A stretch of DNA of 64,000 nucleotides from Caprella mutica (Eukaryota; Arthropoda; Malacostraca; Amphipoda; Caprellidae). The position numbers were made by a program, and so were the translations under genes. The stretch lies in the NCBI GenBank assembly GCA_947561585.1, contig CANNZV010002521.1, forward strand, positions 62,001 through 126,000. Reading direction: 5' to 3'. The notes beneath the pieces are model-generated. The model was not told the DNA's origin. It was given only the letters and a program-made list of their open reading frames with translations, and did no database searches. Shown in pieces: positions 36,050-64,000 of this stretch (the stretch's first letter is position 1; each line of letters begins with the position of its first letter).

Positions 36050-36487
36050 CGCAAAATAAACGGTGAGAATACGTTATCATAACTATTAGTTATTATTCAA
36101 GTTTTATTCAAATGGTATCCATGATATTTGCAGGTATCATGGATACCAATTAGAATAACAGTTAAAATTACGCACCGTTTTCTTACATGACCGGATATGT
36201 GTAACTGTTCGGTAACTCGGAACTTGCCCATAGCGAGCAAGTAACGCGGTCTCTGTGTGTACCTATTGATATTGTCTATATGATACAAACACGTGTATAC
36301 CTAATTGTGGTACACATTGTCATTATTTAATTCGCGTTTGAAATATTGACAGCGGAATACATTTGTACCATCTTGTTTTTTAGTAATACATATAGTGGTA
36401 CTAATGTGTACCAATACGTAGATAACATGTTAAGTAGTCAACCATTACAAAGGAGGTAGGGTTAGGCTACACACAGAGTACACTCGA
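36050..36487 (+). repeat. left inverted arm of the giant foldback
   Basis: This arm matches 59786-60224 in reverse complement. It contains a hairpin (36106-36155) with ggtatccatgata / tatcatggatacc. Mirror ORFs in both arms (63 and 75 codons, sharing MGKFRVTEQLHISGHV) reflect the inverted repeat; there is no evidence that they are translated. Confidence 0.95.
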
Positions 36488-39400
36488 TACAGTCACTGCA
36501 CCAGTGTACAGTCACTGCACCAGTGTACAGTCACTGCACCAGTGTACAGTCACTGCACCAGTGTACAGTCACTGCACCAGTGTACAGTCACTGCACCAGT
36601 GTACAGTCACTGCACCAGTGTACAGTCACTGTACCAGTGTACAGTCACATCACCAGTGTACAGTCACATCACCAGTGTACAGTCACATCACCAGTGTACA
36701 GTCACATCACCAGTGTACAGTCACATCACCAGTGTACAGTCACATCACCAGTGTACAGTCACTGTACCAGTGTACAGTCACTGTACCAGTGTACAGTCAC
36801 TGTACCAGTGTACAGTCACTGTACCAGTGTACAGTCACATCACCAGTGTACAGTCACTGCACCAGTGTACAGTCACTGCACCAGTGTACAGTCACTGCAC
36901 CAGTGTACAGTCACATCACCAGTGTACAGTCACTGTACCAGTGTACAGTCACTGCACCAGTGTACAGTCACTGCACCAGTGTACAGTCACTGCACCAGTG
37001 TACAGTCACTGCACCAGTGTACAGTCACTGCACCAGTGTACAGTCACTGCACCAGTGTACAGTCACATCACCAGTGTACAGTCACATCACCAGTGTACAG
37101 TCACTGTACCAGTGTACAGTCACTGCACCAGTGTACAGTCACTGCACCAGTGTACAGTCACTGCAACAGTGTACAGTCACTGCACCAGTGTACAGTCACT
37201 GCACCAGTGTACAGTCACTGCACCAGTGTACAGTCACTGCACCAGTGTACAGTCACATCACCAGTGTACAGTCACATCACCAGTGTACAGTCACTGTACC
37301 AGTGTACAGTCACTGTACCAGTGTACAGTCACTGTACCAGTGTACAGTCACTGTACCAGTGTACAGTCACTGCACCAGTGTACAGTCACTGCACCAGTGT
37401 ACAGTCACTGCACCAGTGTACAGTCACTGTACCAGTGTACAGTCACTGTACCAGTGTACAGTCACTGCACCAGTGTACAGTCACTGTACCAGTGTACAGT
37501 CACTGTACCAGTGTACAGTCACATCACCAGTGTACAGTCACATCACCAGTGTACAGTCACATCACCAGTGTACAGTCACATCACCAGTGTACAGTCACTG
37601 TACCAGTGTACAGTCACTGTACCAGTGTACAGTCACTGTACCAGTGTACAGTCACTGTACCAGTGTACAGTCACTGTACCAGTGTACAGTCACTGTACCA
37701 GTGTATAGTCACTGCACCAGTGTACAGTCACTGCACCAGTGTACAGTCACTGCACCAGTGTACAGTCACTGCACCAGTGTACAGTCACATCACCAGTGTA
37801 CAGTCACATCACCAGTGTACAGTCACTGTACCAGTGTACAGTCACTGCACCAGTGTACAGTCACTGCACCAGTGTACAGTCACTGTACCAGTGTACAGTC
37901 ACTGCACCAGTGTACAGTCACATCACCAGTGTACAGTCACATCACCAGTGTACAGTCACTGTACCAGTGTACAGTCACTGCACCAGTGTACAGTCACTGC
38001 ACCAGTGTACAGTCACTGCACCAGTGTACAGTCACTGCACCAGTGTACAGTCACTGCAACAGTGTACAGTCACATCACCAGTGTACAGTCACATCACCAG
38101 TGTACAGTCACTGTACCAGTGTACAGTCACTGTACCAGTGTACAGTCACTGTACCAGTGTACAGTCACTGTACCAGTGTACAGTCACTGTACCAGTGTAC
38201 AGTCACTGCACCAGTGTACAGTCACTGTACCAGTGTACAGTCACTGTACCAGTGTACAGTCACATCACCAGTGTACAGTCACATCACCAGTGTACAGTCA
38301 CATCACCAGTGTACAGTCACATCACCAGTGTACAGTCACTGTACCAGTGTACAGTCACTGTACCAGTGTACAGTCACTGTACCAGTGTACAGTCACTGTA
38401 CCAGTGTACAGTCACATCACCAGTGTACAGTCACTGCACCAGTGTACAGTCACTGCACCAGTGTACAGTCACTGCACCAGTGTACAGTCACTGCACCAGT
38501 GTACAGTCACATCACCAGTGTACAGTCACATCACCAGTGTACAGTCACTGTACCAGTGTACAGTCACTGCACCAGTGTACAGTCACTGCACCAGTGTACA
38601 GTCACTGCACCAGTGTACAGTCACTGTACCAGTGTACAGTCACTGCACCAGTGTACAGTCACATCACCAGTGTACAGTCACATCACCAGTGTACAGTCAC
38701 TGTACCAGTGTACAGTCACTGCACCAGTGTACAGTCACTGCACCAGTGTACAGTCACTGCACCAGTGTACAGTCACTGCAACAGTGTACAGTCACATCAC
38801 CAGTGTACAGTCACATCACCAGTGTACAGTCACTGTACCAGTGTACAGTCACTGCACCAGTGTACAGTCACTGTACCAGTGTACAGTCACATCACCAGTG
38901 TACAGTCACTGCACCAGTGTACAGTCACTGCACCAGTGTACAGTCACCGTACCAGTGTACAGTCACTGTACCAGTGTACAGTCACTGCACCAGTGTACAG
39001 TCACTGCACCAGTGTACAGTCACTGTACCAGTGTACAGTCACTGTACCAGTGTACAGTCACATCACCAGTGTACAGTCACATCACCAGTGTACAGTCACT
39101 GTACCAGTGTACAGTCACATCACCAGTGTACAGTCACTGTACCAGTGTACAGTCACTGTACCAGTGTACAGTCACTGTACCAGTGTACAGTCACTGTACC
39201 AGTGTACAGTCACTGTACCAGTGTACAGTCACATCACCAGTGTACAGTCACTGCACCAGTGTACAGTCACATCACCAGTGTACAGTCACTGCACCAGTGT
39301 ACAGTCACTGCACCAGTGTACAGTCACTGCACCAGTGTACAGTCACTGCACCAGTGTACAGTCACATCACCAGTGTACAGTCACATCACCAGTGCACAGT

Positions 39401-42400
39401 CACTGTACCAGTGTACAGTCACTGCACCAGTGTACAGTCACTGCACCAGTGTACAGTCACTGCACCAGTGTACAGTCACTGCACCAGTGTACAGTCACAT
39501 CACCAGTGTACAGTCACATCACCAGTGTACAGTCACATCACCAGTGTACAGTCACTGTACCAGTGTACAGTCACTGCACCAGTGTACAGTCACTGCACCA
39601 GTGTACAGTCACATCACCAGTGTACAGTCACATCACCAGTGTACAGTCACTGTACCAGTGTACAGTCACTGTACCAGTGTACAGTCACTGTACCAGTGTA
39701 CAGTCACATCACCAGTGTACAGTCACTGTACCAGTGTACAGTCACTGCACCAGTGTACAGTCACATCACCAGTGTACAGTCACATCACCAGTGTACAGTC
39801 ACATCACCAGTGTACAGTCACTGTACCAGTGTACAGTCACTGCACCAGTGTACAGTCACTGTACCAGTGTACAGTCACTGTACCAGTGTACAGTCACTGC
39901 ACCAGTGTACAGTCACTGTACCAGTGTACAGTCACTGTACCAGTGTACAGTCACTGCACCAGTGTACAGTCACTGCACCAGTGTACAGTCACTGTACCAG
40001 TGTACAGTCACTGCACCAGTGTACAGTCACTGCACCAGTGTACAGTCACTGCACCAGTGTACAGTCACATCACCAGTGTACAGTCACTGTACCAGTGTAC
40101 AGTCACTGTACCAGTGTACAGTCACTGTACCAGTGTACAGTCACATCACCAGTGTACAGTCACATCACCAGTGTACAGTCACATCACCAGTGTACAGTCA
40201 CATCACCAGTGTACAGTCACATCACCAGTGTACAGTCACATCACCAGTGTACAGTCACTGTACCAGTGTACAGTCACTGCACCAGTGTACAGTCACTGTA
40301 CCAGTGTACAGTCACATCACCAGTGTACAGTCACATCACCAGTGTACAGTCACTGCACCAGTGTACAGTCACATCACCAGTGTACAGTCACTGTACCAGT
40401 GTACAGTCACTGTACCAGTGTACAGTCACTGCACCAGTGTACAGTCACTGTACCAGTGTACAGTCACTGCACCAGTGTACAGTCACTGTACCAGTGTACA
40501 GTCACTGCACCAGTGTACAGTCACATCACCAGTGTACAGTCAGTGCACCAGTGTACAGTCACATCACCAGTGTACAGTCACATCACCAGTGTACAGTCAC
40601 TGCACCAGTGTACAGTCACTGCACCAGTGTACAGTCACATCACCAGTGTACAGTCACTGCACCAGTGTACAGTCACATCACCAGTGTACAGTCACTGCAC
40701 CAGTGTACAGTCACTGCACCAGTGTACAGTCACATCACCAGTGTACAGTCACTGCACCAGTGTACAGTCACTGCACCAGTGTACAGTCACATCACCAGTG
40801 TACAGTCACTGCACCAGTGTACAGTCACTGCACCAGTGTACAGTCACTGCACCAGTGTACAGTCACTGCACCAGTGTACAGTCACTGCACCAGTGTACAG
40901 TCACTGCACCAGTGTACAGTCACATCACCAGTGTACAGTCACTGCACCAGTGTACAGTCACATCACCAGTGTACAGTCACTGTACCAGTGTACAGTCACA
41001 TCAACAGTGTACAGTCACTGCACCAGTGTACAGTCACTGCACCAGTGTACAGTCACATCACCAGTGTACAGTCACATCACCAGTGTACAGTCACTGCACC
41101 AGTGTACAGTCACTGCACCAGTGTACAGTTACATCACCAGTGTACAGTCACATCACCAGTGTACAGTCACTGCACCAGTGTACAGTCACATCACTAGTGT
41201 ACAGTCACTGCACCAGTGTACAGTCACTGCACCAGTGTACAGTCACATCACCAGTGTACAGTCACTGCACCAGTGTACAGTCACATCACCAGTGTACAGT
41301 CACTGCACCAGTGTACAGTCACATCACCAGTGTACAGTCACTGCACCAGTGTACAGTCACTGCACCAGTGTACAGTCACTGCACCAGTGTACAGTCACTG
41401 CACCAGTGTACAGTCACTGCACCAGTGTACAGTCACTGCACCAGTGTACAGTCACTGCACCAGTGTACAGTCACATCACCAGTGTACAGTCACATCACCA
41501 GTGTACAGTCACTGCACCAGTGTACAGTCACTGCACCAGTGTACAGTCACATCACCAGTGTACAGTCACTGTACCAGTGTACAGTCACATCACCAGTGTA
41601 CAGTCACTGTACCAGTGTACAGTCACATCACCAGTGTACAGTCACTGCACCAGTGTACAGTCACTGCACCAGTGTACAGTCACATCACCAGTGTACAGTC
41701 ACTGCACCAGTGTACAGTCACATCACCAGTGTACAGTCACATCACCAGTGTACAGTCACTGCACCAGTGTACAGTCACATCACCAGTGTACAGTCACTGT
41801 ACCAGTGTACAGTCACTGTACCAGTGTACAGTCACTGTACCAGTGTACAGTCACTGCACCAGTGTACAGTCACTGCACCAGTGTACAGTCACTGCACCAG
41901 TGTACAGTCACTGCACCAGTGTACAGTCACTGCACCAGTGTACAGTCACTGCACCAGTGTACAGTCACTGCACCAGTGTACAGTCACATCACCAGTGTAC
42001 AGTCACATCACCAGTGTACAGTCACTGTACCAGTGTACAGTCACTGTACCAGTGTACAGTCACTGCACCAGTGTACAGTCACTGCACCAGTGTACAGTCA
42101 CATCACCAGTGTACAGTCACTGTACCAGTGTACAGTCACTGCACCAGTGTACAGTCACTGCACCAGTGTACAGTCACATCACCAGTGTACAGTCACTGCA
42201 CCAGTGTACAGTCACTGCACCAGTGTACAGTCACTGCACCAGTGTACAGTCACATCACCAGTGTACAGTCACTGTACCAGTGTACAGTCACATCACCAGT
42301 GTACAGTCACTGCACCAGTGTACAGTCACTGCACCAGTGTACAGTCACTGCACCAGTGTACAGTCACTGTACCAGTGTACAGTCACTGTACCAGTGTACA

Positions 42401-45400
42401 GTCACTGTACCAGTGTACAGTCACATCACCAGTGTACAGTCACATCACCAGTGTACAGTCACATCACCAGTGTACAGTCACATCACCAGTGTACAGTCAC
42501 TGCACCAGTGTACAGTCACTGCACCAGTGTACAGTCACATCACCAGTGTACAGTCACTGCACCAGTGTACAGTCACATCACCAGTGTACAGTCACTGCAC
42601 CAGTGTACAGTCACTGCACCAGTGTACAGTCACTGCACCAGTGTACAGTCACTGCACCAGTGTACAGTCACATCACCAGTGTACAGTCACTGTACCAGTG
42701 TACAGTCACTGTACCAGTGTACAGTCACATCACCAGTGTACAGTCACTGTACCAGTGTACAGTCACTGTACCAGTGTACAGTCACATCACCAGTGTACAG
42801 TCACTGTACCAGTGTACAGTCACATCACCAGTGTACAGTCACTGTACCAGTGTACAGTCACTGCACCAGTGTACAGTCACTGCACCAGTGTACAGTCACA
42901 TCACCAGTGTACAGTCACTGTACCAGTGTACAGTCACTGCACCAGTGTACAGTCACATCACCAGTGTACAGTCACTGTACCAGTGTACAGTCACTGCACC
43001 AGTGTACAGTCACTGCACCAGTGTACAGTCACTGTACCAGTGTACAGTCACTGTACCAGTGTACAGTCACTGTACCAGTGTACAGTCACTGCACCAGTGT
43101 ACAGTCACTGTACCAGTGTACAGTCACTGTACCAGTGTACAGTCACTGTACCAGTGTACAGTCACTGCACCAGTGTACAGTCACATCACCAGTGTACAGT
43201 CACTGTACCAGTGTACAGTCACTGCACCAGTGTACAGTCACTGTACCAGTGTACAGTCACTGTACCAGTGTACAGTCACATCACCAGTGTACAGTCACAT
43301 CACTAATGTACAGTCACTGTACCAGTGTACAGTCACTGTACCAGTGTACAGTCACTGCACCAGTGTACAGTCACTGCACCAGTGTACAGTCACTGCACCA
43401 GTGTACAGTCACTGCACCAGTGTACAGTCACTGCACCAGTGTACAGTCACATCACCAGTGTACAGTCACTGCACCAGTGTACAGTCACTGCACCAGTGTA
43501 CAGTCACTGCACCAGTGTACAGTCACTGCACCAGTGTACAGTCACTGCACCAGTGTACAGTCACTGCACCAGTGTACAGTCACTGCACCAGTGTACAGTC
43601 ACATCACCAGTGTACAGTCACATCACCAGTGTACAGTCACTGCACCAGTGTACAGTCACTGCACCAGTGTACAGTCACATCACCAGTGTACAGTCACTGC
43701 ACCAGTGTACAGTCACTGCACCAGTGTACAGTCACATCACCAGTGTACAGTCACATCACCAGTGTACAGTCACATCACCAGTGTACAGTCACATCACCAG
43801 TGTACAGTCACATCACCAGTGTACAGTCACATCACCAGTGTACAGTCACATCACCAGTGTACAGTCACTGTACCAGTGTACAGTCACTGTACCAGTGTAC
43901 AGTCACTGCACCAGTGTACAGTCACTGCACCAGTGTACAGTCACATCACCAGTGTACAGTCACTGCACCAGTGTACAGTCACTGCACCAGTGTACAGTCA
44001 CTGCACCAGTGTACAGTCACTGCACCAGTGTACAGTCACATCACCAGTGTACAGTCACATCACCAGTGTACAGTCACATCACCAGTGTACAGTCACATCA
44101 CCAGTGTACAGTCACTGCACCAGTGTACAGTCACATCACCAGTGTACAGTCACTGCACCAGTGTACAGTCACTGTACCAGTGTACAGTCACTGCACCAGT
44201 GTACAGTCACTGCACCAGTGTACAGTCACATCACCAGTGTACAGTCACTGCACCAGTGTACAGTCACTGCACCAGTGTACAGTCACTGCACCAGTGTACA
44301 GTCACTGCACCAGTGTACAGTCACATCACCAGTGTACAGTCACATCACCAGTGTACAGTCACATCACCAGTGTACAGTCACATCACCAGTGTACAGTCAC
44401 TGCACCAGTGTACAGTCACATCACCAGTGTACAGTCACTGCACCAGTGTACAGTCACTGTACCAGTGTACAGTCACTGTACCAGTGTACAGTCACTGCAC
44501 CAGTGTACAGTCACTGCACCAGTGTACAGTCACTGTACCAGTGTACAGTCACTGTACCAGTGTACAGTCACTGTACCAGTGTACAGTCACTGTACCAGTG
44601 TACAGTCACTGCACCAGTGTACAGTCACTGTACCAGTGTACAGTCACTGTACCAGTGTACAGTCACTGCACCAGTGTACAGTCACTGCACCAGTGTACAG
44701 TCACTGCACCAGTGTACAGTCACTGCACCAGTGTACAGTCACATCACCAGTGTACAGTCACATCACCAGTGTACAGTCACATCACCAGTGTACAGTCACA
44801 TCACCAGTGTACAGTCACATCACCAGTGTACAGTCACATCACCAGTGTACAGTCACATCACCAGTGTACAGTCACATCACCAGTGTACAGTCACATCACC
44901 AGTGTACAGTCACTGTACCAGTGTACAGTCACTGCACCAGTGTACAGTCACTGTACCAGTGTACAGTCACATCACCAGTGTACAGTCACATCACCAGTGT
45001 ACAGTCACTGCACCAGTGTACAGTCACATCACCAGTGTACAGTCACTGTACCAGTGTACAGTCACATCACCAGTGTACAGTCACTGCACCAGTGTACAGT
45101 CACTGTACCAGTGTACAGTCACTGTACCAGTGTACAGTCACTGCACCAGTGTACAGTCACATCACCAGTGTACAGTCACATCACCAGTGTACAGTCACAT
45201 CACCAGTGTACAGTCAGTGCACCAGTGTACAGTCACATCACCAGTGTACAGTCACTGCACCAGTGTACAGTCACATCACCAGTGTACAGTCACTGCACCA
45301 GTGTACAGTCACATCACTAGTGTACAGTCACTGCACCAGTGTACAGTCACTGCACCAGTGTACAGTCACATCACCAGTGTACAGTCACTGCACCAGTGTA

Positions 45401-48400
45401 CAGTCACATCACCAGTGTACAGTCACTGCACCAGTGTACAGTCACTGCACCAGTGTACAGTCACATCACCAGTGTACAGTCACTGCACCAGTGTACAGTC
45501 ACTGCACCAGTGTACAGTCACTGCACCAGTGTACAGTCACATCACTAGTGTACAGTCACTGCACCAGTGTACAGTCACTGCACCAGTGTACAGTCACTGC
45601 ACCAGTGTACAGTCACATCACCAGTGTACAGTCACTGCACCAGTGTACAGTCACATCACCAGTGTACAGTCACTGTACCAGTGTACAGTCACATCACCAG
45701 TGTACAGTCACATCACCAGTGTACAGTCACTGCACCAGTGTACAGTCACTGCACCAGTGTACAGTCACATCACCAGTGTACAGTCACATCACCAGTGTAC
45801 AGTCACTGCACCAGTGTACAGTCACATCACCAGTGTACAGTTACATCACCAGTGTACAGTCACATCACCAGTGTACAGTCACTGCACCAGTGTACAGTCA
45901 CTGCACCAGTGTACAGTCACTGCACCAGTGTACAGTCACTGCACCAGTGTACAGTCACTGCACCAGTGTACAGTCACATCACCAGTGTACAGTCACTGCA
46001 CCAGTGTACAGTCACTGCACCAGTGTACAGTCACTGCACCAGTGTACAGTCACTGCACCAGTGTACAGTCACATCACCAGTGTACAGTCACTGCACCAGT
46101 GTACAGTCACTGCACCAGTGTACAGTCACTGCACCAGTGTACAGTCACTGCACCAGTGTACAGTCACTGCACCAGTGTACAGTCACATCACCAGTGTACA
46201 GTCACATCACCAGTGTACAGTCACTGCACCAGTGTACAGTCACTGCACCAGTGTACAGTCACATCACCAGTGTACAGTCACTGCACCAGTGTACAGTCAC
46301 ATCACCAGTGTACAGTCACTGTACCAGTGTACAGTCACATCACCAGTGTACAGTCACTGCACCAGTGTACAGTCACTGTACCAGTGTACAGTCACATCAC
46401 CAGTGTACAGTCACTGCACCAGTGTACAGTCACATCACCAGTGTACAGTCACTGCACCAGTGTACAGTCACATCACCAGTGTACAGTCACTGCACCAGTG
46501 TACAGTCACATCACCAGTGTACAGTCACATCACCAGTGTACAGTCACATCACCAGTGTACAGTCACTGCACCAGTGTACAGTCACTGTACCAGTGTACAG
46601 TCACTGTACCAGTGTACAGTCACTGTACCAGTGTACAGTCACTGCACCAGTGTACAGTCACTGTACCAGTGTACAGTCACTGCACCAGTGTACAGTCACT
46701 GTACCAGTGTACAGTCACTGCACCAGTGTACAGTCACTGCACCAGTGTACAGTCACATCACCAGTGTACAGTCACATCACCAGTGTACAGTCACATCACC
46801 AGTGTACAGTCACATCACCAGTGTACAGTCACTGTACCAGTGTACAGTCACTGCACCAGTGTACAGTCACATCACCAGTGTACAGTCACATCACCAGTGT
46901 ACAGTCACTGCACCAGTGTACAGTCACTGCACCAGTGTACAGTCACTGCACCAGTGTACAGTCACTGCACCAGTGTACAGTCACATCACCAGTGTACAGT
47001 CACTGTACCAGTGTACAGTCACATCACCAGTGTACAGTCACTGCACCAGTGTACAGTCACTGCACCAGTGTACAGTCACTGTACCAGTGTACAGTCACTG
47101 TACCAGTGTACAGTCACTGTACCAGTGTACAGTCACTGTACCAGTGTACAGTCACTGTACCAGTGTACAGTCACATCACCAGTGTACAGTCACATCACCA
47201 GTGTACAGTCACTGCACCAGTGTACAGTCACTGCACCAGTGTACAGTCACATCACCAGTGTACAGTCACTGCACCAGTGTACAGTCACATCACCAGTGTA
47301 CAGTCACTGCACCAGTGTACAGTCACTGCACCAGTGTACAGTCACTGCACCAGTGTACAGTCACATCACCAGTGTACAGTCACTGCACCAGTGTACAGTC
47401 ACATCACCAGTGTACAGTCACTGTACCAGTGTACAGTCACTGTACCAGTGTACAGTCACTGTACCAGTGTACAGTCACTGTACCAGTGTACAGTCACTGT
47501 ACCAGTGTACAGTCACTGTACCAGTGTACAGTCACTGCACCAGTGTACAGTCACTGTACCAGTGTACAGTCACTGTACCAGTGTACAGTCACTGTACCAG
47601 TGTACAGTCACTGTACCAGTGTACAGTCACTGTACCAGTGTACAGTCACTGCACCAGTGTACAGTCACATCACCAGTGTACAGTCACATCACCAGTGTAC
47701 AGTCACTGCACCAGTGTACAGTCACTGCACCAGTGTACAGTCACATCACCAGTGTACAGTCACTGCACCAGTGTACAGTCACATCACCAGTGTACAGTCA
47801 CATCACCAGTGTACAGTCACATCACCAGTGTACAGTCACTGTACCAGTGTACAGTCACTGTACCAGTGTACAGTCACTGTACCAGTGTACAGTCACTGCA
47901 CCAGTGTACAGTCACTGCACCAGTGTACAGTCACTGCACCAGTGTACAGTCACTGCACCAGTGTACAGTCACTGCACCAGTGTACAGTCACATCACCAGT
48001 GTACAGTCACTGCACCAGTGTACAGTCACTGTACCAGTGTACAGTCATATCACCAGTGTACAGTCACTGCACCAGTGTACAGTCACATCACCAGTGTACA
48101 GTCACTGCACCAGTGTACAGTCACATCACCAGTGTACAGTCACATCACCAGTGTACAGTCACTGTACCAGTGTACAGTCACTGCACCAGTGTACAGTCAC
48201 ATCACCAGTGTACAGTCACATCACCAGTGTACAGTCACATCACCAGTGTACAGTCACTGTACCAGTGTACAGTCACTGCACCAGTGTACAGTCACTGTAC
48301 CAGTGTACAGTCACTGTACCAGTGTACAGTCACTGTACCAGTGTACAGTCACTGCACCAGTGTACAGTCACTGTACCAGTGTACAGTCACTGTACCAGTG

Positions 48401-51400
48401 TACAGTCACTGTACCAGTGTACAGTCACTGTACCAGTGTACAGTCACTGCACCAGTGTACAGTCACTGTACCAGTGTACAGTCACTGCACCAGTGTACAG
48501 TCACATCACCAGTGTACAGTCACTGTACCAGTGTACAGTCACTGTACCAGTGTACAGTCACATCACCAGTGTACAGTCACATCACCAGTGTACAGTCACT
48601 GCACCAGTGTACAGTCACATCACCAGTGTACAGTCACTGTACCAGTGTACAGTCACTGTACCAGTGTACAGTCACTGTACCAGTGTACAGTCACATCACC
48701 AGTGTACAGTCACTGTACCAGTGTACAGTCACTGTACCAGTGTACAGTCACTGTACCAGTGTACAGTCACTGTACCAGTGTACAGTCACTGTACCAGTGT
48801 ACAGTCACTGCACCAGTGTACAGTCACTGTACCAGTGTACAGTCACTGTACCAGTGTACAGTCACTGCACCAGTGTACAGTCACATCACCAGTGTACAGT
48901 CACTGTACCAGTGTACAGTCACTGTACCAGTGTACAGTCACTGTACCAGTGTACAGTCACATCACCAGTGTACAGTCACATCACCAGTGTACAGTCACTG
49001 CACCAGTGTACAGTCACATCACCAGTGTACAGTCACTGTACCAGTGTACAGTCACTGTACCAGTGTACAGTCACATCACCAGTGTACAGTCACTGCACCA
49101 GTGTACAGTCACTGTACCAGTGTACAGTCACATCACCAGTGTACAGTCACTGCACCAGTGTACAGTCACATCACCAGTGTACAGTCAGTGCACCAGTGTA
49201 CAGTCACATCACCAGTGTACAGTCACTGCACCAGTGTACAGTCACATCACCAGTGTACAGTCACTGCACCAGTGTACAGTCACATCACTAGTGTACAGTC
49301 ACTGCACCAGTGTACAGTCACTGCACCAGTGTACAGTCACATCACCAGTGTACAGTCACTGCACCAGTGTACAGTCACATCACCAGTGTACAGTCACTGC
49401 ACCAGTGTACAGTCACTGCACCAGTGTACAGTCACATCACCAGTGTACAGTCACTGCACCAGTGTACAGTCACTGCACCAGTGTACAGTCACATCACTAG
49501 TGTACAGTCACTGCACCAGTGTACAGTCACTGCACCAGTGTACAGTCACATCACCAGTGTACAGTCACTGCACCAGTGTACAGTCACATCACCAGTGTAC
49601 AGTCACTGCACCAGTGTACAGTCACATCACCAGTGTACAGTCACTGTACCAGTGTACAGTCACATCACCAGTGTACAGTCACATCACCAGTGTACAGTCA
49701 CATCACCAGTGTACAGTCACTGCACCAGTGTACAGTCACTGCACCAGTGTACAGTCACATCACCAGTGTACAGTCACTGCACCAGTGTACAGTCACAGCA
49801 CCAGTGTACAGTCACTGCACCAGTGTACAGTCACTGCACCAGTGTACAGTCACATCACCAGTGTACAGTCACATCACCAGTGTACAGTCACTGCACCAGT
49901 GTACAGTCACATCACCAGTGTACAGTCACTGCACCAGTGTACAGTCACTGCACCAGTGTACAGTCACTGCACCAGTGTACAGTCACTGCACCAGTGTACA
50001 GTCACTGCACCAGTGTACAGTCACTGCACCAGTGTACAGTCACATCACCAGTGTACAGTCACTGCACCAGTGTACAGTCACTGCACCAGTGTACAGTCAC
50101 ATCACCAGTGTACAGTCACTGTACCAGTGTACAGTCACATCACCAGTGTACAGTCACTGCACCAGTGTACAGTCACTGTACCAGTGTACAGTCACATCAC
50201 CAGTGTACAGTCACTGCACCAGTGTACAGTCACTGCACCAGTGTACAGTCACATCACCAGTGTACAGTCACTGCACCAGTGTACAGTCACATCACCAGTG
50301 TACAGTCACTGCACCAGTGTACAGTCACTGCACCAGTGTACAGTCACTGCACCAGTGTACAGTCACATCACCAGTGTACAGTCACTGTACCAGTGTACAG
50401 TCACTGTACCAGTGTACAGTCACTGCACCAGTGTACAGTCACTGTACCAGTGTACAGTCACTGCACCAGTGTACAGTCACATCACCAGTGTACAGTCACT
50501 GCACCAGTGTACAGTCACATCACCAGTGTACAGTCACATCACCAGTGTACAGTCACTGTACCAGTGTACAGTCACATCACCAGTGTACAGTCACTGCACC
50601 AGTGTACAGTCACTGCACCAGTGTACAGTCACTGCACCAGTGTACAGTCACATCACCAGTGTACAGTCACTGCACCAGTGTACAGTCACATCACCAGTGT
50701 ACAGTCACTGCACCAGTGTACAGTCACTGCACCAGTGTACAGTCACATCACCAGTGTACAGTCACTGTACCAGTGTACAGTCACTGTACCAGTGTACAGT
50801 CACTGCACCAGTGTACAGTCACTGCACCAGTGTACAGTCACATCACCAGTGTACAGTCACTGTACCAGTGTACAGTCACTGTACCAGTGTACAGTCACTG
50901 TACCAGTGTACAGTCACATCACCAGTGTACAGTCACATCACCAGTGTACAGTCACATCACCAGTGTACAGTCACTGCACCAGTGTACAGTCACTGCACCA
51001 GTGTACAGTCACATCACCAGTGTACAGTCACTGCACCAGTGTACAGTCACTGCACCAGTGTACAGTCACATCACCAGTGTACAGTCACATCACCAGTGTA
51101 CAGTCACTGCACCAGTGTACAGTCACATCACCAGTGTACAGTCACTGCACCAGTGTACAGTCACTGCACCAGTGTACAGTCACTGCACCAGTGTACAGTC
51201 ACTGCACCAGTGTACAGTCACTGCACCAGTGTACAGTCACATCACCAGTGTACAGTCACTGCACCAGTGTACAGTCACTGCACCAGTGTACAGTCACTGC
51301 ACCAGTGTACAGTCACATCACCAGTGTACAGTCACTGTACCAGTGTACAGTCACTGTACCAGTGTACAGTCACTGTACCAGTGTACAGTCACTGTACCAG

Positions 51401-51575
51401 TGTACAGTCACTGTACTAGTGTACAGTCACTGTACCAGTGTACAGTCACTGCACCAGTGTACAGTCACTGTACCAGTGTACAGTCACATCACCAGTGTAC
51501 AGTCACTGTACCAGTGTACAGTCACTGTACTAGTGTACAGTCACTGTACCAGTGTACAGTCACTGCACCAGTGTA
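36488..51575 (+). repeat. 19-bp minisatellite, about 794 units, three unit types
   Basis: The unit is cagtgtacagtcactgcac. Almost every unit is one of three types: ctgcac, ctgtac or catcac at the variable end. Each unit contains the inverted repeat cagtg...cactg, and ctgcac units form cactg-cac-cagtg. Rare variants recur at exact multiples of 19, showing nested block duplications. The unit has no stop codon on the plus strand in any frame, and 19 is not a multiple of three, so every frame stays open with a 19-residue period. The very long ORFs here, up to 4325 codons, are therefore artefacts. Confidence 0.98.
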
Positions 51576-51902
51576 TATTGAAAATATAGTACGATGTGGA
51601 GAAATATAGATAAAAAGTTTAAAAGTTTTTTATTCGTAGCAGATATTTGACAACTACGAGTCTGAAACTCATTTTGAAACTCTAGAATGAATAAGGTGTC
51701 TTTTGTCAGCCGAGAGAGTGCAAGCCAACCACTTCCACGCCGCACCTCCGATTGTACTGAACTGCAAAAAAATGAAAAGAAACCATGAAATATATAATTA
51801 TAGGTTCAAAGATTATAATTAATTAAAGGGTTGATAAATTTTAAAATAGATTTTAATAAGAGTAACTATTATGATTTTATTTGCAATAATAAACTGAAGA
51901 AC
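51576..51902. other. core of the giant foldback, left AT-rich part
   Basis: About 330 bp separate the 19-bp array from the 10-bp satellite. No gene or motif was recognised. Confidence 0.5.
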
Positions 51903-52461
51903 AAACAACTCTAAACAACTCTAAACAACTCTAAACAACTCTAAACAACTCTAAACAACTCTAAACAACTCTAAACAACTCTAAACAACTCTAAACAACT
52001 CTAAACAACTCTAAACAACTCTAAACAACTCTAAACAACTCTAAACAACTCTAAACAACTCTAAACAACTCTAAACAACTCTAAACAACTCTAAACAACT
52101 CTAAACAACTCTAAACAACTCTAAACAACTCTAAACAACTCTAAACAACTCTAAACAACTCTAAACAACTCTAAACAACTCTAAACAACTCTAAACAACT
52201 CTAAACAACTCTAAACAACTCTAAACAACTCTAAACAACTCTAAACAACTCTAAACAACTCTAAACAACTCTAAACAACTCTAAACAACTCTAAACAACT
52301 CTAAACAACTCTAAACAACTCTAAACAACTCTAAACAACTCTAAACAACTCTAAACAACTCTAAACAACTCTAAACAACTCTAAACAACTCTAAACAACT
52401 CTAAACAACTCTAAACTCTAAACAACTATAAACTCTAAACAACTATAAACTCTAAATAACT
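51903..52461. repeat. 10-bp satellite, 50 perfect copies plus decayed tail
   Basis: The unit ctaaacaact is repeated without a single change from 51911 to 52410 (50 copies). It then decays through ctaaactctaaacaactata units to about 52461. Perfect homogeneity contrasts with the mixed unit types of the other arrays. Confidence 0.97.
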
Positions 52462-53462
52462 ATGAGCTTACTATTTATTAATTTTAATAAGAAAAAAGAA
52501 GTCTATCAATTACGGGTAAACCTAAAATGTAATATTAAATCTTACATAGGTATTTATAATTTAGTATGATTTTAATATTTAAGAAAAAATGTTAATTATA
52601 TTTTATGCAAATTCAGTTTTGTTTTTATTGGGGAACTATGAAGGGGAATACTTATCACTAGGATAAGTACCTCAAATAACGGTAACAGAACAACCTCTCA
52701 CATATTGCTTACCGTCATTATTGAAGAGGACTTTCATTCCTTAGAGTCACTGTCCATCCACCATCTTAGTACCACTTCGCCCCGTACCGCCCGGTACCAC
52801 CTTTTAAGGATTAGTCAGTCATACTAGAGTTGGAAATCCTCGCAGTAAAACATATCCCTGCGTTCAACTTCCAGTGTAGAAAGGGAGATTTTTTCCAGGA
52901 GAGATACAAATTTTAGCTGTTGATTCAGTGGTGGCTAATTTTGGACTGCCTTCTACAGCGCTGAAAATCTCAGAAGTAAAGGTCATAAACAAATGAAGGG
53001 GGTATTGCGTAGTGAAATATTATTGTAATATGATCGGTTAACAATATATGAGGAAAAATCTATTACCGTTATGTCCCATACCTCATTATTTAATACACTC
53101 CCAAGAAAAGGATTCAAATTGAGTATAGCAATTTGAATTCATAATAAATTTATTGAATATACTTATCATGGTATAAACAGAATATATGTTTTAGAATCCA
53201 AAATTATAAATTTTGAACATCTAAATATCCAAGCAGTTATGTAAATGGAACACCTACAATCTGATTAGGGATTCATTAAAACCACTAAATATATCTATCT
53301 AAATGTACAGAAAACCACAAAAAAGCTATAACGAAATAGTAACTAACAACAAACTACAGAAAACTTCAACATATATACACTCATTAGAACTAACAAACTA
53401 CGAAAGGAACAAGAATAAACTATTTAATATATATATATACACAAACACAAAATGGTAAAAAA
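52462..53462. other. 3' flank of the BEL/Pao relict, possible LTR not resolved
   Basis: This lies downstream of the integrase stop on the minus strand and should include a polypurine tract and LTR if the BEL element ended normally. I could not define TG...CA boundaries. A slightly GC-richer patch with gtaccgcccggtacc lies at about 52784-52798. Confidence 0.4.
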
Positions 53463-55685
53463 TCAGCCCAACATCACTTTGGACTTTTCTCTGCTAATTA
53501 AAGCGGCTTTACGTTTCTTGCGAAAGTTTGGAACATCTGAATCAGTCTTCTCCTTTTCTATGACCTCGACTGAAGTCTCTTGTATCATAGGTATGAGGTT
53601 AGAAGAATGTCTCTTCACGAGTTCTTGCGTCCTACCCTTGAATAGTATAGCACCTGTAGTTTCTCCCAAATCATTTACCTGAACGTCTTCAACTATTGCC
53701 AATGGGTAATTGGATGGCTTATAGTTTTCTTCTTTTATAAGCACAATATCCCCAATATTCAACTTATCGTGCTTAACAGGTTTATATCTTGTCTTCTTAT
53801 CAGTAGCTTGTGATATCAATGTTCCCAAAAACTCGCTATTGTAAATTTTAATCATAGCTCTTCTAACATTTCTAAGCTTCTTGTAGGTATCTGTTATGGA
53901 GGAAGAACTACTTATTTCAAAATTCAAGTCCCCAGGTACTGGGTCCAATTCCGGTATTACATTAATGTTAATAGTTTCATAGCCTCTTAACAAGAGTTCA
54001 GGCGTAATAACATATGGAATTTCCTCGTTGCTCCTTAAACTACTCTGCAATGAAATTGGCCTTTTGTTCAGTAAATTTACACATTCAGCAACCAAAAAAT
54101 CGAATTCTCTAACTTTCAATATATTCTTCTTAATAGAAGCGAACAACAATCTTTTGGTCATCTTGACACAAATTTCTACAAGAGAACCAAGTTCACTTTG
54201 ACCTTTGTAATAATGATCAAAAGTAGTTACCTTCAAGTTATGCTCTGCGAAGTATTTCTTGCATTCAAAATTATTTAACAAGTTCGTAATTATGTTACCA
54301 CCCGCAACAAGTTGTGCTCCTAAATCTGAGAAAACTTTTACGGGTAACCCATATTCAAATGAATGAAGTTGAAAAGCTCGCAAGAATTCTGCTGTAGTTA
54401 AATCCTTAACGACCTTTAAATTTATAGCACGGGTCCAAACACAAGTAACACAGAGTACCCAAACTTTCACGTTTTCTTCTGCATAATCTTTAATTAAGTT
54501 TGGCCCAAAATAATCCAAATACACTGTCGAAAAGGGGGTATTAGGAGGGTCCACCCTAAATTCCCGATAAGGACTTTGATTGAGTCTTACACTACGAGCA
54601 TTAAATCGTTTACAGTGGACACATGCACGTAACGTTTTTTTAACTGTTGAAAAGTGACTAGGGATCCAATAATTTTTTCTCAAGTTAGACAGCACAACAT
54701 AAACACCACAGTGCTTTAAACGTTCGTGGGTTTCACGAATGATCATCTTAGTAACTGAACTGTTCTTTGGAAGCAAAATAGGACACAAATTATTTTTATA
54801 TTTCCCGTCTTTGAGTAATTTACTTCCCACTCTAAGTAACCCGTCTGAGTCTAAGAAAACTTTCAACTGACAGATCAGATTTGGAACATCTTTAACAAGA
54901 GACTTATCAGACGAAAAATAACCATAAACCTCGGAAAAATGCTCTCTTTGTTCATTCTCAATAATTGTACGTAATGCCTTGTCTTTAATTGCCCCTGAAT
55001 CTAATGTATCTGTTTTACGTACTTTATGCTTACGTTTCTCCATGAAAGTAATCACATGTTCGTACACTTTAACTAACTTCAAAAAACTTGAATATAGTTC
55101 ATGAGGAAACAAAGACTCCTTAATCGCCTGGTAAGATATCGAATAATTATGAGAACTGTTGAATTCCTCAAATGGTACAACAAAATTCATTACTTCCGAA
55201 TTACTAACAGATTTATCAGAAGAACGTAAAAAATCGGGACCGCTAATGTAGTTACTTTTTCGAAGTAACTTCGTTGAAAAGGGTCTAGTAATGAAATCAG
55301 CGGGGTTTTGACACCCTTCAACAAAGTTGAAATGAATTGGGAAATAATTGGCCATTTTTTTTATTTTCTCCAATCTGTTGACAACAAACACAGCTTTCTT
55401 ATTCATTTTGTCTAACTTCACCTGGTGAGACTTTATCCAGTTCAGCGCCACCAGACTGTCTGAATAAATCAACATTTCGGTAATCTCTATTGGAGACAAA
55501 ATAGTTTCTCCCTTCAAGTCAACTAAAGTCTCAACTCCAAGTACTATTGAAAGAAGTTCTAGTGACGGAATAGTTTTCCCTTCCAAATTCTTTCCTATCA
55601 TACGATTCTTAGCCAAGAGGAAATTCACTTCAAGCGTTTCTAAACATTGGATATAATAAAATTGGATGAAATTAACATACTGCAA
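53463..55685 (-). CDS. pol: BEL/Pao retrotransposon RNase H - integrase fragment
   Basis: This open 740-codon frame lacks the gag, protease and reverse transcriptase that would precede it. Residues ~37-160 resemble the BEL/Pao RNase H region (TIPSLELLSIVLGVE, then SDSLVALNWIKSH and NPADFITR). A zinc-binding HHCC-type integrase N-terminal part follows (HERLKHCGV ... CVHCKRF). The rve core has Asp in YLDYFGP, Asp in FSDLGAQ and a Glu in SELGSLVE. The C-terminus matches the DUF5641-type tail of BEL/Pao integrases (GDIVLIKEENYKPSNYPLA). RNase H removes template RNA and integrase joins cDNA to the genome. The frame is surprisingly free of stops for a fragment, which suggests a recent truncation. 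Confidence 0.9.
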   Translation of the reverse strand: MQYVNFIQFYYIQCLETLEVNFLLAKNRMIGKNLEGKTIPSLELLSIVLGVETLVDLKGETILSPIEITEMLIYSDSLVALNWIKSHQVKLDKMNKKAVFVVNRLEKIKKMANYFPIHFNFVEGCQNPADFITRPFSTKLLRKSNYISGPDFLRSSDKSVSNSEVMNFVVPFEEFNSSHNYSISYQAIKESLFPHELYSSFLKLVKVYEHVITFMEKRKHKVRKTDTLDSGAIKDKALRTIIENEQREHFSEVYGYFSSDKSLVKDVPNLICQLKVFLDSDGLLRVGSKLLKDGKYKNNLCPILLPKNSSVTKMIIRETHERLKHCGVYVVLSNLRKNYWIPSHFSTVKKTLRACVHCKRFNARSVRLNQSPYREFRVDPPNTPFSTVYLDYFGPNLIKDYAEENVKVWVLCVTCVWTRAINLKVVKDLTTAEFLRAFQLHSFEYGLPVKVFSDLGAQLVAGGNIITNLLNNFECKKYFAEHNLKVTTFDHYYKGQSELGSLVEICVKMTKRLLFASIKKNILKVREFDFLVAECVNLLNKRPISLQSSLRSNEEIPYVITPELLLRGYETININVIPELDPVPGDLNFEISSSSSITDTYKKLRNVRRAMIKIYNSEFLGTLISQATDKKTRYKPVKHDKLNIGDIVLIKEENYKPSNYPLAIVEDVQVNDLGETTGAILFKGRTQELVKRHSSNLIPMIQETSVEVIEKEKTDSDVPNFRKKRKAALISREKSKVMLG

Positions 55686-56021
55686 ACACAGATCAATACA
55701 AATGTAGGGTTATAATGGAGGTCTGTGTATAGTGACATCTATGTGTGTTTATTATTAGTTCTTATACTTTAAAATAAATAATGCACTATTTAGAACTCTA
55801 ACAATGTTATATTTAATAAGACTGTAAGACATTATAAACATGATGTGGAGAAAGATAGTTTGTAGTTGGTCAGGGTACACGGCGATTAATTTTTAAGATA
55901 GGCAAATCATGAGTCAGTAATTTACATCACACATACACATTATCAAGCACAAACTCACCATATGTATACGTGTGGTAAGTTGCGACGCGTCTATCCGCAT
56001 ACATATGAAGTTGGGATGTGA
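55686..56021. other. right part of the foldback core, no gene
   Basis: This is unique AT-rich sequence between the BEL fragment and the inverted 19-bp array. No reverse transcriptase sequence was found, so the truncation of the BEL element lies at about 55685. Confidence 0.5.
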
Positions 56022-56162
56022 CTGTGCACTGGTGCAGTGACTGTACACTGGTGATGTGACTGTACACTGGTGATGTGACTGTACACTGGTACAGTGACTG
56101 TACACTGGTGCAGTGACTGTACACTGGTACAGTGACTGTACTCTGGTGCAGTGACTGTACAC
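56022..56162 (-). repeat. inverted 19-bp array, inner segment
   Basis: Seven to eight units of the 19-bp repeat run in minus orientation, with all three unit types and single variants (gtgcactgg, gtactctgg). The segment ends at ctgtacac (56155-56162), where a transposon is inserted. Confidence 0.95.
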
Positions 56163-56682
56163 TAGGGTGGGCCGAAAACAAAAATTTTTGATATTCAATT
56201 GTGGGGTGTAACAGAAATTTGTGAATAGGTAAAATATTATATAAAATGAAATTTCAGGTTATTTTTACAAGATTAAGAGGTCCCCCAACGCATTTGAAGT
56301 TTTCAAATTCATGTATTTATTGATAAATATGATATAATTTTCACAAATACATTTTTTAATCCATACTCTACTATCATTTACATATTCATTATATAAATAA
56401 GTTAATGCTTTCACTGTTATAATTCATTCATATGTAGTTTTCTTCTGATCAGTAATCTGAAGATGTTCTGAACGAACTTCTAGCCTCTAGGAGAGGTATC
56501 GAGTTACCGCGAAGCCAGTGCCTCAGGATTACCCTGAGTTAACATGTCGTGTGTGGCTGTGACACGCAACTCATTTAACCTCCCTGTGTTTGGAGTTGTT
56601 AGTGATTTCAATTCCAACCAATTACCGACTTATGCTTACATTATAAAGTCAATTCTGTTTAGAAAAAAAAAACAGTTGAAAT

Positions 56683-58591
56683 TTGATACAGGGAAGGAAT
56701 AAGAATATCTGCTACACATTGGCTGAACCTATTGCAAATATTTACGTGAGTGCATCCATTCTAAGTGTAACTGTGAAACAAATATCTGATAAATTTATCT
56801 CTTATCATGAGAAGTATTTAAATTTTATCAAACCTTATAAGAGCCGGTGCAATTTGGAGAGTTATAAACAGAAACTTAAAAAGTTCTTGGATCACTCTGA
56901 AATATTGTTTGACTTTTCCTCTTGTAAGTGCAATGATTTTGAATCGTGTATCTGTCCGAAGGAAAAGAAAATTCCCAAAATTGAACAGCAATTTCTGATT
57001 GACCAGCGTAATAACCATTTGATGATCATAGGTTCAGTTGATGGCAGTACCACAAAAAAATTAGAAAAAAGAGCCGCACGTTAAAGTGCTTCAGAAATGA
57101 GAGGCACTGAAATAAGTATCGAAACTTTGTATGCTGCTAGTGACTCCACTGTTGATACAGAATCCGAACTTGAAGAATTTATTCCATCAAAGACAACATT
57201 GAAAAAACTTAGAAATGAAGTCTTCTATGCAACAGATAAAGGTTGAAGCAGCTCCACGTTTTTAACACCAAAACAAGTGAAGAGTTTTCATATTTTTGCA
57301 ACTGCATTTGACCGTGTCGGGATCTCTGATCGTGGTGCTTCGTTGCTTTCTTCCTCTTTGTTAGAGGATATTTCTGTTCCTGATGACACTAAAAATATAT
57401 TTGACAAAAATAAAATCCGTAGTGAAAGAACTAAGAACCGGATGAACAAAAGAAAGTTTGAATCTGATATTACTAGCATTTATTTTTATGGCAAGAGAGA
57501 CATCACATTGACAGATGAAAAGAGAGGTAACAAAAATTACTGGAAGAAAGTCACTGAGGAACACATATCCGTTATTGCTGAACCAGATTCCCAATATGTA
57601 AGACACTTCACTCCAGATTACGGAAGTTCACAAAGTACCAATCGAGGCATCTTGCAATTCTGTCTGATGAAGTCCCTTCCTCTCGAATCATTGGTTGCTA
57701 TTGGGTGCGATGGAACTAATGTAAATAAAGGATTGAAAGGTGGAATAATCAAATTGATCGAGCAATCTATGAAGAAACCCCCCTTGGTTCGTCTGTATGC
57801 TGCATGGTAATGAACTTCCACTCAGACATTTATTCACCTTTATACCTAGATGGTAAAACAAGTGGTCCACGGTGCTTCACAGGAGTTATAGGTAAGAGTT
57901 TACAAAATTGTGAGACAAAACCTATTGTAAAATTCACTGTGACAACTCTAAGTACTGATCAAAAATTTCTCTATGAAATTCATCAAGCTATAAGTGTCGG
58001 TGAAGTTTCACAAGACTTGTCATCGCGTTCACCAGGAGGATTGAATCATGCCAGATGGATAACAACTGCAAATAGGATTCTTAGGTTGTATGTTTCAATT
58101 AAATATCCGAGTCAAGATCTGATCACATTGACTCGATTTGTCATGGAAGTGTATTCACCAATGTGGTTTGCCATTACAGTAAATCCTTTCGTTCAGAGTG
58201 GCCCTAAGCACATATTCCAGAGCATTCTATTGATCAAAACACAATGTAAAAGTACCCAAAGAATTGTGATGCCTGTTGTCAAAAGGAATGCTTACTTTGC
58301 TCATTCAGAGAATATTCTACTTGCAATGTTGATACCAGGTCTGATATAGTGCGGGTATTCAAGTTGCCTGAAATAAATTGGGAGTGCACAAATTACATAA
58401 CTTTAATCAATTGGAGAAGTGAAGTAACAGAGCCTCCTCTAACTAAGCATTTCACAGATGAAGAAATTGAAAATCACATTGTAAATAAGGAGCTGTTCCA
58501 ATGTCCAAAATATCCACTTCACACACAAGCAGTAGAACGCACCATAAAGCTGATAAAGCCAAGAAGCAAGAGATGGTTTAATACTAATTAA
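56683..58591 (+). pseudogene. transposase-like protein of unassigned family, broken
   Basis: Frame 56683-57810 continues through two in-frame stops (57082-57084 and 57244-57246). Frameshifts then move it to 57804-58349 and on to 58349-58591. The N-terminal third has a cysteine cluster (CKCNDFESCICP) that may bind zinc. The middle has IGCDGTNVNKGLKGG, GNELPLRH (another frame) and DGKTSGPRCFTGVIGK. Further on are GGLNHARWITTANRILRLYV, YFAHSENILLAML and finally HTQAVERTIKLI. These words recall a family of uncharacterised proteins repeated in many invertebrate genomes (general recollection, not checked). Acidic residues in CDG and LDGK could be catalytic, but this is inference. The position within terminal inverted repeats supports a transposase role. 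Confidence 0.68.
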
Positions 58592-59552
58592 AATAGCATC
58601 AAGGCAACGTGTTAGTAAATTCGACTCAAAAAAAGACTTTATGTAACTGATCTTCACTTGTAATTATCCTTTCTTATAGTCAAATATAGCTCAATATATT
58701 TTTTTATTTGTAGTAAATGCCACTGAATTAAAAGGAAATGTAATTTTGTAACAGCAATGGATAACATTTTTATCAATCATTTTTGTTTACTTGAACACTT
58801 TTGTATTGTATTCGTTAAAGGATGAAGATTTTGTTGTTTTTTCTCATTTAGTTAAACGTTGTTGTGTCCGTGATGGAAAGAATTTTTTGCTGTGAATTAT
58901 TATTTTCTAAATATTTTATGAATAAATTTCTTTAAAACTATCTATCTTTAATTCAACCTATGTTTACAGAATCAAAACATGCCATTGATTATGTGAAAAG
59001 TCTGAGGTTTTTCAGTAGAATAAATTATTATTGGATCCTGATAAAATTAATACGTATATTGAATATGTTAATGGAACTTCTTTTTTGAAAAATGATATTT
59101 CTATATATAATGAATAATATTTTGTTCTACAAATTAATTCCTTGGTAAGAAAAATGCTGATCAGACAAGCCTAATTCGTGTTTAATCTCACAGATGAATC
59201 ATTTTATACGTAAAATCAAATAATTTATTTTCAGAATCAAGTTGTGGGACCTCTTATCCAATTCTAAGCGATCTGGAAATTTACACACGATCTCTGAATT
59301 AACATATGAAACGAATTAAATATCCCCGTTCATAAGTCATTTTGAAAATTTTGAGAAAATTTTAAATATATGAGAAATAAATGATAAATTTATTAATTCC
59401 ATATTTCTGTTGCTTTGGGGGACCTATTAAATTTCTTTAATTGGTCTAATATTGTAAACACGTTATTTTTATACCAATACACAACTTTTCTGAGTACCCC
59501 GTAGTTGAAATTCGAAAAAGTTGGTCAAACCCCCCTAAAACGGCCCACCCTA
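58592..59552. other. 3' non-coding part of the decayed transposon
   Basis: This is AT-rich sequence without ORFs, ending in the right terminal repeat. It holds the right subterminal gggacct words. Confidence 0.6.
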
Positions 59553-59785
59553 TTGTACACTGGTGATGTGACTGTACACTGGTGATGTGACTGTACACTG
59601 GTGATGTGACTGTACACTGGTACAGTGACTGTACACTGGTGCAGTGACTGTACACTGGTGCAGTGACTGTACACTGGTGCAGTGACTGTACACTGGTACA
59701 GTGACTGTACACTGGTGATGTGACTGTACACTGGTACAGTGACTGTACACTGGTGCAGTGACTGTACACTGGTGCAGTGACTGTA
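59553..59785 (-). repeat. inverted 19-bp array, outer segment
   Basis: About twelve units in minus orientation continue the array at 56022-56162 after the transposon. It meets the right arm at ctgta (59785), at the same phase as the junction at 36488. Confidence 0.95.
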
Positions 59786-60224
59786 TTGAGTGTACTCTGT
59801 GTGTAGCCTAACCCTACCTCCTTTGTATTGGTAGACTACTTAACATGTTGTCTACGTATTGGTACACATTAGTACCACTATATGTATTACTAAAAAACAA
59901 GATGGTACAAATGTATTCCGCTGTCAATATTTCAAACGCGAATTAAATAATGACAATGTGTACCACAATTAGGTATACACGTGTTTGTATCATACAGACA
60001 ATATCAATAGGTACACACAGAGACACACGTTACTTGCTCTCTATGGGCAAGTTCCGAGTTACCGAACAGTTACACATTTCCGGTCATGTAAGAAAACGGT
60101 GCGTAATTTTAACTGTTATTCTAATTGGTATCCATGATACCTGCAAATATCATGGATACCATTTGAATAAAACTTGAATAATAACTAATAGTTATGATAA
60201 CGTATTCTCACCGTTTATTTTGCG
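59786..60224 (-). repeat. right inverted arm of the giant foldback
   Basis: This is the reverse complement of 36050-36487. Examples of differences are a g/a near the array junction, a gtct(a/g)tatg change and a small indel at cgcgg/cgtgtg. Similarity stops at tgcg (60224). Confidence 0.95.
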
Positions 60225-60735
60225 GCTTTACCTCGATATTCACGAAACTGCCTCATTTTACGGTAACACATTTTCGTTATTCTTGAAAGCCGTCACGTCA
60301 AAGTTTCTAATTTCAGTCTAAATTCTGATTCTCTTCTATTCTAAATTCCTCTAAAAGAAGTAGGTACTAGGTAGTATGTGAAGTAACTGCACCGGTGATT
60401 GTTGCCAACCTACAACTACTGTTCCTTCCGAACATTATTTGTTATTGTTACCATTAATATATATATATATGGAATAGTAATCCAAATCTTATAACTTGTG
60501 TCGTGAGTTAACTTTCTGCACTTTATTTGGATTATTTCTGTTAAATATACTCATTTAGGTACACATATAACTTAACACACACAAACACACATGTGAACTC
60601 TTTGTGACTATTTTCATGAAATACATGGTGAACTATTTTAGCAAAGCACAAAATCATTATTAACGACATTCTGGTAATTTTATGAATCTCTTAAATATAA
60701 TACACTATACCTTTTCCAATTGAAGTTCCTCCAAA
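60225..60735. other. unique AT-rich spacer
   Basis: No gene was seen. A short (ta)n tract lies at about 60456-60469. The spacer separates the giant foldback from the 21-bp array. Confidence 0.55.
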
Positions 60736-63700: not shown

Positions 63701-64000
63701 ATATCATTTCATTAAAGTGAAATATCATTTCATCAAAGTGAAATATCATTTCATTAAAGTGAAATATCATTCCATCAAAGTGAAATATCATTTCATCAAA
63801 GTGAAATATCATTTCATTAAAGTGAAATATCATTTCATTAAAGTGAAATATCATTTCATTAAAGTGAAATATCATTTCATTAAAGTGAAATATCATTTCA
63901 TTAAAGTGAAATATCATTTCATCAAAGTGAAATATCATTTCATCAAAGTGAAATATCATTTCATCAAAGTGAAATATCATTTCATTAAAGTGAAATATCA
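60736..64000 (-). repeat. 21-bp minisatellite, about 155 units, runs off the window
   Basis: The unit is tgaaatatcatttcatcaaag or the same with a t (cattaaag), so nearly every unit is in one of two states. The core tgaaat-atc-atttca is an inverted repeat. Since 21 is a multiple of three, one minus-strand frame stays open for 1091 codons as MIFHFDE / MIFHFNE heptads. Rare variants recur at exact multiples of 21. Every unit also offers an ATG, so no start can be chosen. I read this as a satellite and not as a gene. Confidence 0.93.

Follow-up and report, generated by a model that had tools for sequence, protein, structure and literature searches.

A 19-bp tandem array of 794 units in an inverted pair of a low-copy segment of Caprella mutica: probably a newborn satellite rather than a jumping element

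The growth of satellites from short arrays inside transposons has already been published (PMC7004042; PMC4079207). The closest described systems include both transposable elements and a minisatellite. The foldback element Tetris of Drosophila virilis, with the TIR-220 satellite, is found in several dispersed copies, contains a ~220-bp unit in arrays of up to 66 copies that are reported in beta-heterochromatin, and shows target duplications of 8-9 bp in complete copies and 9-10 bp in rearranged ones (PMC4079207). In D. mojavensis, the ends of Galileo F, a representative of the many-copied Galileo family (P superfamily), vary by up to three copies of a ~210-bp repeat (PMC3573991). In Lathyrus sativus, satellites have grown from short tandem arrays in retrotransposons (PMC7004042), and human MSY1 is a hypervariable minisatellite with interspersed variant repeats (PMC2599865). 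A literature survey, judged by titles and the beginnings of abstracts and with most subscription papers outside its scope, identified no foldback element with an array of the length reported below.

The locus considered here is located in contig CANNZV010002521.1 of Caprella mutica, within a window of 64,000 nucleotides (the whole stretch of DNA analyzed), and is bounded by a pair of inverted arms (36050-36487 and 60224-59786). The features in common with Tetris are the tandem repeat within inverted arms, a variable repeat number (between alleles in Tetris, between related copies here), and growth, predicted in the present case, into longer satellite arrays; unlike Tetris as reported, the window locus has no visible target duplication, is the one two-armed locus found, and has a 19-bp unit in 794 copies (PMC4079207). 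Galileo similarly possesses long inverted ends with an internal repeat number that is unequal between the ends, and some of its copies lack matching target duplications, whereas for the arms described here no dispersed family was found and no transposase was identified (PMC3573991). The short internal array that occasionally expands at particular places is shared with L. sativus, the difference being that the seed appears to reside not in a dispersed retrotransposon but in a segment that is low-copy and gene-like (PMC7004042). The best explanation, to which we assign a probability of about 0.72, is that the arms are a locus-specific inverted pair of a low-copy segment, likely produced by one inverted duplication, with the disparity of 794 against ~20 units being the predicted outcome of the left array having subsequently expanded through the copying of multi-unit blocks. 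The 19-bp array is probably a newborn satellite, not a jumping element; no cellular function is proposed for it, and its behavior is that of a young satellite array.

Each arm comprises an outer 31-bp portion, hereafter X (36050-36080 on the forward strand and 60194-60224 on the reverse strand, located by pattern matching over the 903-Mb assembly), and a body (36081-36487, forward strand, delineated by genome search and alignments; 59786-60193, reverse strand, delineated by alignments). The left arm body is shared with three other contigs, designated C4930, C3606 and C2692. Whether the arm occurs elsewhere, a question raised in the initial annotation of this DNA, receives a divided answer: five of the 46 matches listed in the arm search of the 903-Mb assembly are arm-length, namely, the two window arms and the inner arms in these three contigs, and no partner arm accompanies any of the three among the best 40 of 1956 candidates that were scored, a depth at which weak copies may be missed; moreover, in C2692, fewer than 400 bases separate the arm from the contig end, and a partner might be missing there for that reason. 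Apart from the arm-length ones, the listed matches are short pieces or matches of ~200 bp to a common repeat, and most of those listed cover just the query from ~200 to 372-398. The remnant of this common repeat in the left arm (36250-36433, forward strand, alignment with 7 copies) ends at TTAA within the arm, is present in the right arm too, and appears to belong to a MITE-like class. A tRNA origin of the repeat was considered and rejected, ARAGORN having predicted a single tRNA in 7 loci, outside the repeat.

Beyond the arm, the relatives share a tail segment, which follows the array and is present in the window in a single copy (55657-56017, reverse strand, genome search). Long matches to the tail are confined to the window, C4930, C3606 and C2692 (8 of 8 candidates scored), the other hits being copies of a 47-bp array on C3245 and three short fragments. 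The 47-bp unit forms a tandem array inside the tail at the C2692 contig end (L024 2-189) and another at C3245:87919-88595; the segment has perhaps given rise to this array as well. Upstream part, arm, array (44 and 37 units, respectively) and tail follow one another in C4930 and C3606; in C2692, the arm meets the tail with a single TACAGTCACATC unit between them, which may represent a collapsed array instead of the ancestral state.

The same comparisons bear on the alternative that the locus is a degenerate foldback transposon of the FB, Galileo or Tetris type, with the arms being terminal inverted repeats that contain internal repeats, the target duplication lost and one array expanded. The anatomy fits, given the succession of flanking domain, array and inner part in inverted orientation, with long inverted ends that hold internal tandem repeats, and the published accounts of Galileo copies whose two ends have arrays of unequal length, and of Tetris alleles that differ in repeat number, also speak in its favor. 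Against it, X, with up to 3 mismatches allowed, is matched once on each strand of the 903-Mb assembly, in both cases by a window arm, and all three relatives carry in its place another common sequence of 370-420 bp that has no match to the window, so that no terminal sequence is common to the copies. Likewise, no dispersed copy with both ends was found in the arm search (best 40 of 1956 candidates) or in assembly-wide pattern matching with X and an array 36-mer. By eye, ..CATCTTCAT, which precedes 36050, and GCTTTACCT.., which follows 60224, are unlike and reveal no target-site duplication; a target duplication may have been lost or mutated. Between the arms, no transposase is seen, unless an insertion with boundaries of its own (see below) encodes one. 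The arm search, the unique X, the placement of the 36-mer and the upstream sequence of the relatives thus led us to abandon the mobile foldback element, one of the two origins suggested initially, as the best reading, and we consider it unlikely.

The upstream sequence of the relatives, which by eye resembles the promoter and first exon of a gene, occurs, in whole or for the most part, in six places on five contigs. In C4930 and C3606, inspection by eye identifies, in order, TATAAAA or TATAATA, CAGTT or TAGTT some 32 bases on and, later, GAG|GTAAGT; C2692 has this sequence in common with them from CAGTT onward. We take the TATA-like box, CAGTT/TAGTT and GTAAGT to be promoter, start site and first splice donor motifs, respectively. 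These motifs upstream of the arm suggest that the arm and the array sit within intron 1 of a small family of duplicated genes. The upstream sequence is seen at L018 (9820-10000), L022/L023 and L024 and may mark such a family. Two open reading frames are found in the vicinity of the relatives: one of 647 codons, ~7 kb from the C2692 arm copy (L024 8033-9976), with a match to the NACHT domain (E 1.1e-12), and one of 756 codons, ~2.3 kb from the C3606 arm (L023 7177-9447), with a DDE_1 match and a weak Psq-like match, which perhaps encodes a pogo-like transposase.

The 19-bp arrays were delineated by a tandem-repeat scan and unit scoring. The expanded left array (36488-51575, forward strand) contains 794 units in the assembly, from which its length and order are taken. 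Not one of the 793 spacings between units departs from 19 bp, and 771 of the 793 scored units belong to one of three types, TGC (328), ATC (248) and TGT (195), that differ at positions 10-12 alone; outside these positions, 21 of 12,704 cells deviate (0.17%). The right array, on the reverse strand, consists of an outer part of ~12 (12.2) units (59553-59785) and an inner part of ~7.7 units (56018-56163), ~20 in total. Both arrays begin in the same phase inside the arms and run in opposite orientations, as originally described; the original counts of ~794 and ~20 units are also right, with the qualification that the right array is split in two by a 3390-bp transposon. Fixed-length head-to-tail units with interspersed variants, and a copy number of 1, 37, 44, ~20 and 794 across related loci, are what a minisatellite or young satellite displays. 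Human MSY1 reportedly consists of a few discrete unit types in changing order and is said to change by whole units and blocks, and the 19-bp array likewise has few discrete unit types in changing order.

A search of the whole assembly with the array 36-mer at up to 2 mismatches, a pattern that would overlook strongly diverged arrays, yields 792 matches (760 forward and 32 reverse), all of which are placed in four arrays at three loci: 731 forward and 13 reverse in the window, 29 forward in C4930, 19 reverse in C3606 and none in C2692. Non-standard units account for 22 of 793 in the left array compared to 12 of 44 in C4930 and 11 of 37 in C3606; this far greater uniformity fits recent growth and, together with the locus-specific outer end of the arms, supports the other origin suggested initially, a recent inverted duplication in which the left array grew about 40-fold. 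The common ancestry of the array also looks younger than that of the arms (0.17% deviation against 8 substitutions, or ~1% per arm), with the proviso that 0.17% is no clock and that homogenization can mimic youth. Two other interpretations of the array were rejected: for a coding array, we read its long open reading frames as units without stops, and for hairpin-driven expansion, a 285-base stretch of the array, as single-stranded DNA, folds no better than shuffled sequences (z 0.25 and -0.19 for the two strands). A search of Rfam at gathering thresholds produced no match within the window.

The span from 36050 to 60224, first described as a 24-kb element, is real, yet it is not a single unit: two unrelated transposable elements are nested within it. 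The first of these, a BEL/Pao LTR retrotransposon, is represented by its 3' part and lacks the 5' half (51576-55656, reverse strand, identified by Pfam and genome copies); it contains matches to the Pao peptidase and integrase zinc-binding domains, and only BEL/Pao-type Pfam domains are detected between the arms. The outer end of its LTR adjoins the left array, and at least 25 matches to the terminal repeat are listed in the genome, including the one in the window. In all 5 BEL/Pao copies compared, the terminal-repeat match begins at the end of the window array, and in 4 of the 5, homology reaches 55656 and each copy goes on to a second terminal repeat; the fifth copy, L038, has the terminal-repeat match only within the stretch compared. 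From these boundaries, the retrotransposon very likely integrated into the left array and then lost its 5' half together with the center of the structure. The fragment itself includes a 10-bp array (51903-52450, forward strand, tandem-repeat scan), and the BEL/Pao copies (the window and L037-L041) contain 10-bp or 17-bp arrays beside the terminal repeat, with ~5 to at least 68 units.

The second element, inside the right array, is a DNA transposon of 3390 bp (56163-59552, forward strand, alignment to the C4930 copy) with the ends TAGGGTGGGCCG, presumably of the hAT class judging from the end sequence and the length of the target duplication. The 8-bp target duplication is CTGTACAC/TTGTACAC in the window, with one mismatch, and TTGTAGAG on both sides at C4930. 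The 99.94% identity to C4930:16851-20252 over 3402 bp suggests a recent insertion, and a recent insertion would leave the shortness of the right array unexplained. The open reading frames at 56683-58349 have no Pfam match, and a protein search with them returned 4 unnamed proteins. This interior transposon was rejected as a source of transposase for the arms: both its ends and its target duplication are separate from theirs, and a near-identical copy is present at another locus.

That the arms were made, or the array inflated, by a palindromic chimeric read or a mis-joined haplotype appears very unlikely. Such regions do seem to assemble poorly, since the contig with the C4930 arm copy is 33 kb long and the copy in C2692 borders a contig end. 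However, unlike the halves of a hairpin read, the arms differ at 9 places and the arrays differ 40-fold in size and have different unit orders; furthermore, the two halves are occupied by different transposable elements, and the 794 units include no long exact internal duplication.

The divergence of the arms is informative about their origin. Over ~438 aligned bp, the two arms are distinguished by 8 substitutions and one 1-bp indel, in line with the eight or nine differences originally noticed. Two substitutions are common to both window arms and absent from C4930, C3606 and C2692; private changes amount to five substitutions and a 1-bp deletion in the left arm and to two substitutions in the right arm, and one more difference is ambiguous, as the right arm has the base of C2692 there and the left arm that of C4930 and C3606. 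This pattern, together with the locus-specific flank, favors, with modest support, a single inverted duplication later than the split from C4930 and C3606. Least probable of the alternatives is that two independent copies of the segment were inverted through separate duplications, which could draw on the identity of the arm bodies being only slightly higher between the arms (98.0%) than between the arms and C4930 (97.3% and 97.5%) but is countered by the junction of both arms to the unique 31-bp X at the same base and by the 2 shared derived substitutions. For the preferred inverted duplication, the same narrow spread of identities is a weak point, as is the reliance on just 2 shared derived substitutions plus X to join the arms. 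The sequence abutting the left arm is the end of another dispersed repeat, LTR-like by inference from its matches (35923-36048, forward strand, genome search); among the best 40 of 78 candidates, these matches extend over query positions 274-397 and stop at 36046, and in two contigs, C5086 and C512, they are paired ~4.6 kb apart. On the right, the flank at 60579-60647 is similar to a 35-bp repeat found after the tail in C4930 and C3606, which points to a rearranged segmental duplicate.

The order of events and the mechanism of growth that we infer for the preferred reading would be the following. A seed unit would have given rise to a short array in a low-copy, intron-like segment, and the segment carrying this minisatellite would then have undergone head-to-head inverted duplication. 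The BEL/Pao element would have inserted into the left array, and a deletion from this element into the right tail would have removed the center; the growth of the left array would have followed and, last, the recent hAT-like insertion into the right array. Growth might have proceeded by unequal exchange, or by break-induced or rolling-circle copying of blocks of ~210-250 units, after which single units would have been gained and lost. In the unit order of the left array, units 178-331 match units 426-580 (76%) and units 443-568 match units 653-766 (74%), that is, there are three related domains at offsets of ~248 and ~210 units. The best local block score is 109 compared to a maximum of 64 in 200 first-order Markov simulations, whereas under strict scoring there is no block signal in the 19-bp array (17 compared to the null maximum of 20 in 60 simulations). 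Blocks were thus probably copied, and later eroded as single units were gained and lost.

An array of 15 kb is long for a minisatellite. On this contig, it is not exceptional, and giant arrays are not peculiar to the arms: 17-bp and 21-bp arrays of 14-15 kb with a similar signature are present on the same contig. The 17-bp array spans at least 14 kb (C2521:52001-66031; window 1-4031 and L025), one 21-bp array ~15.5 kb (C2521:122732-138281; window from 60732 to 64000 and beyond), and a second 21-bp array on the contig ~15 kb, reaching the contig end; altogether, 21-bp arrays of ~10-15 kb are found at three places (window 60732-64000 onward, L017 and L028-L029). Like the 19-bp array, these arrays consist of near-fixed units with one or a few common variant sites: one balanced C/T site in the three 21-bp arrays (340:285, 275:192 and 385:291), and a C/T site (510:298) and several further variant sites in the 17-bp array. 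Spacings that depart from the unit length number 10 of 818 in the 17-bp array and 23 of 700 in the far 21-bp array. Elsewhere in the window, positions 11625-12741 are occupied by a ~136-bp tandem array of shorter (~39 bp) sub-repeats with GCGTGAGCGTGCACGCC. In 12 other loci, a sample biased by the choice of five of them via the array-carrying retrotransposon, 13,307 of 118,005 bases are in arrays of at least 5 copies.

Block structure is pronounced in the 21-bp arrays. Permissive alignment of unit order places six comparisons above all 40 simulations but in a saturated range, and strict scoring was therefore used. Under strict scoring, the highest values reached in the null simulations (60 each) are 23, 21 and 27 for blocks within arrays, where the observed scores are 72, 45 and 54, and 22, 23 and 20 for blocks common between arrays, where 33, 54 and 33 are observed. 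In the 17-bp array, no block structure was detected with two scorings (465 against a null mean of 742 and 141 against a null mean of 345, both below the null maxima too). A tentative and, on balance, doubtful generalization is that, in this genome, minisatellites reach 14-15 kb through the copying of mixed blocks as a whole, which would preserve a few balanced unit types in each array instead of uniformity. If this is true, the window would represent one caught stage of an active, genome-wide amplification of arrays, e.g., by reinsertion of rolling-circle copies, and the pedigree of the 19-bp array would be countable in one assembly.

The growth of an array in an inverted duplication is a real case here, and events of this kind are known. 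As a rule, satellite DNA comes into view after its spread; the unusual point is that a single assembly allows all matching arrays (36-mer, up to 2 mismatches) to be counted. With relatives at 1, 37 and 44 units, the birth and growth of one array can be traced locus by locus, and the two inverted copies provide a built-in comparison, with equal sequence and neighborhood and 40-fold different growth.
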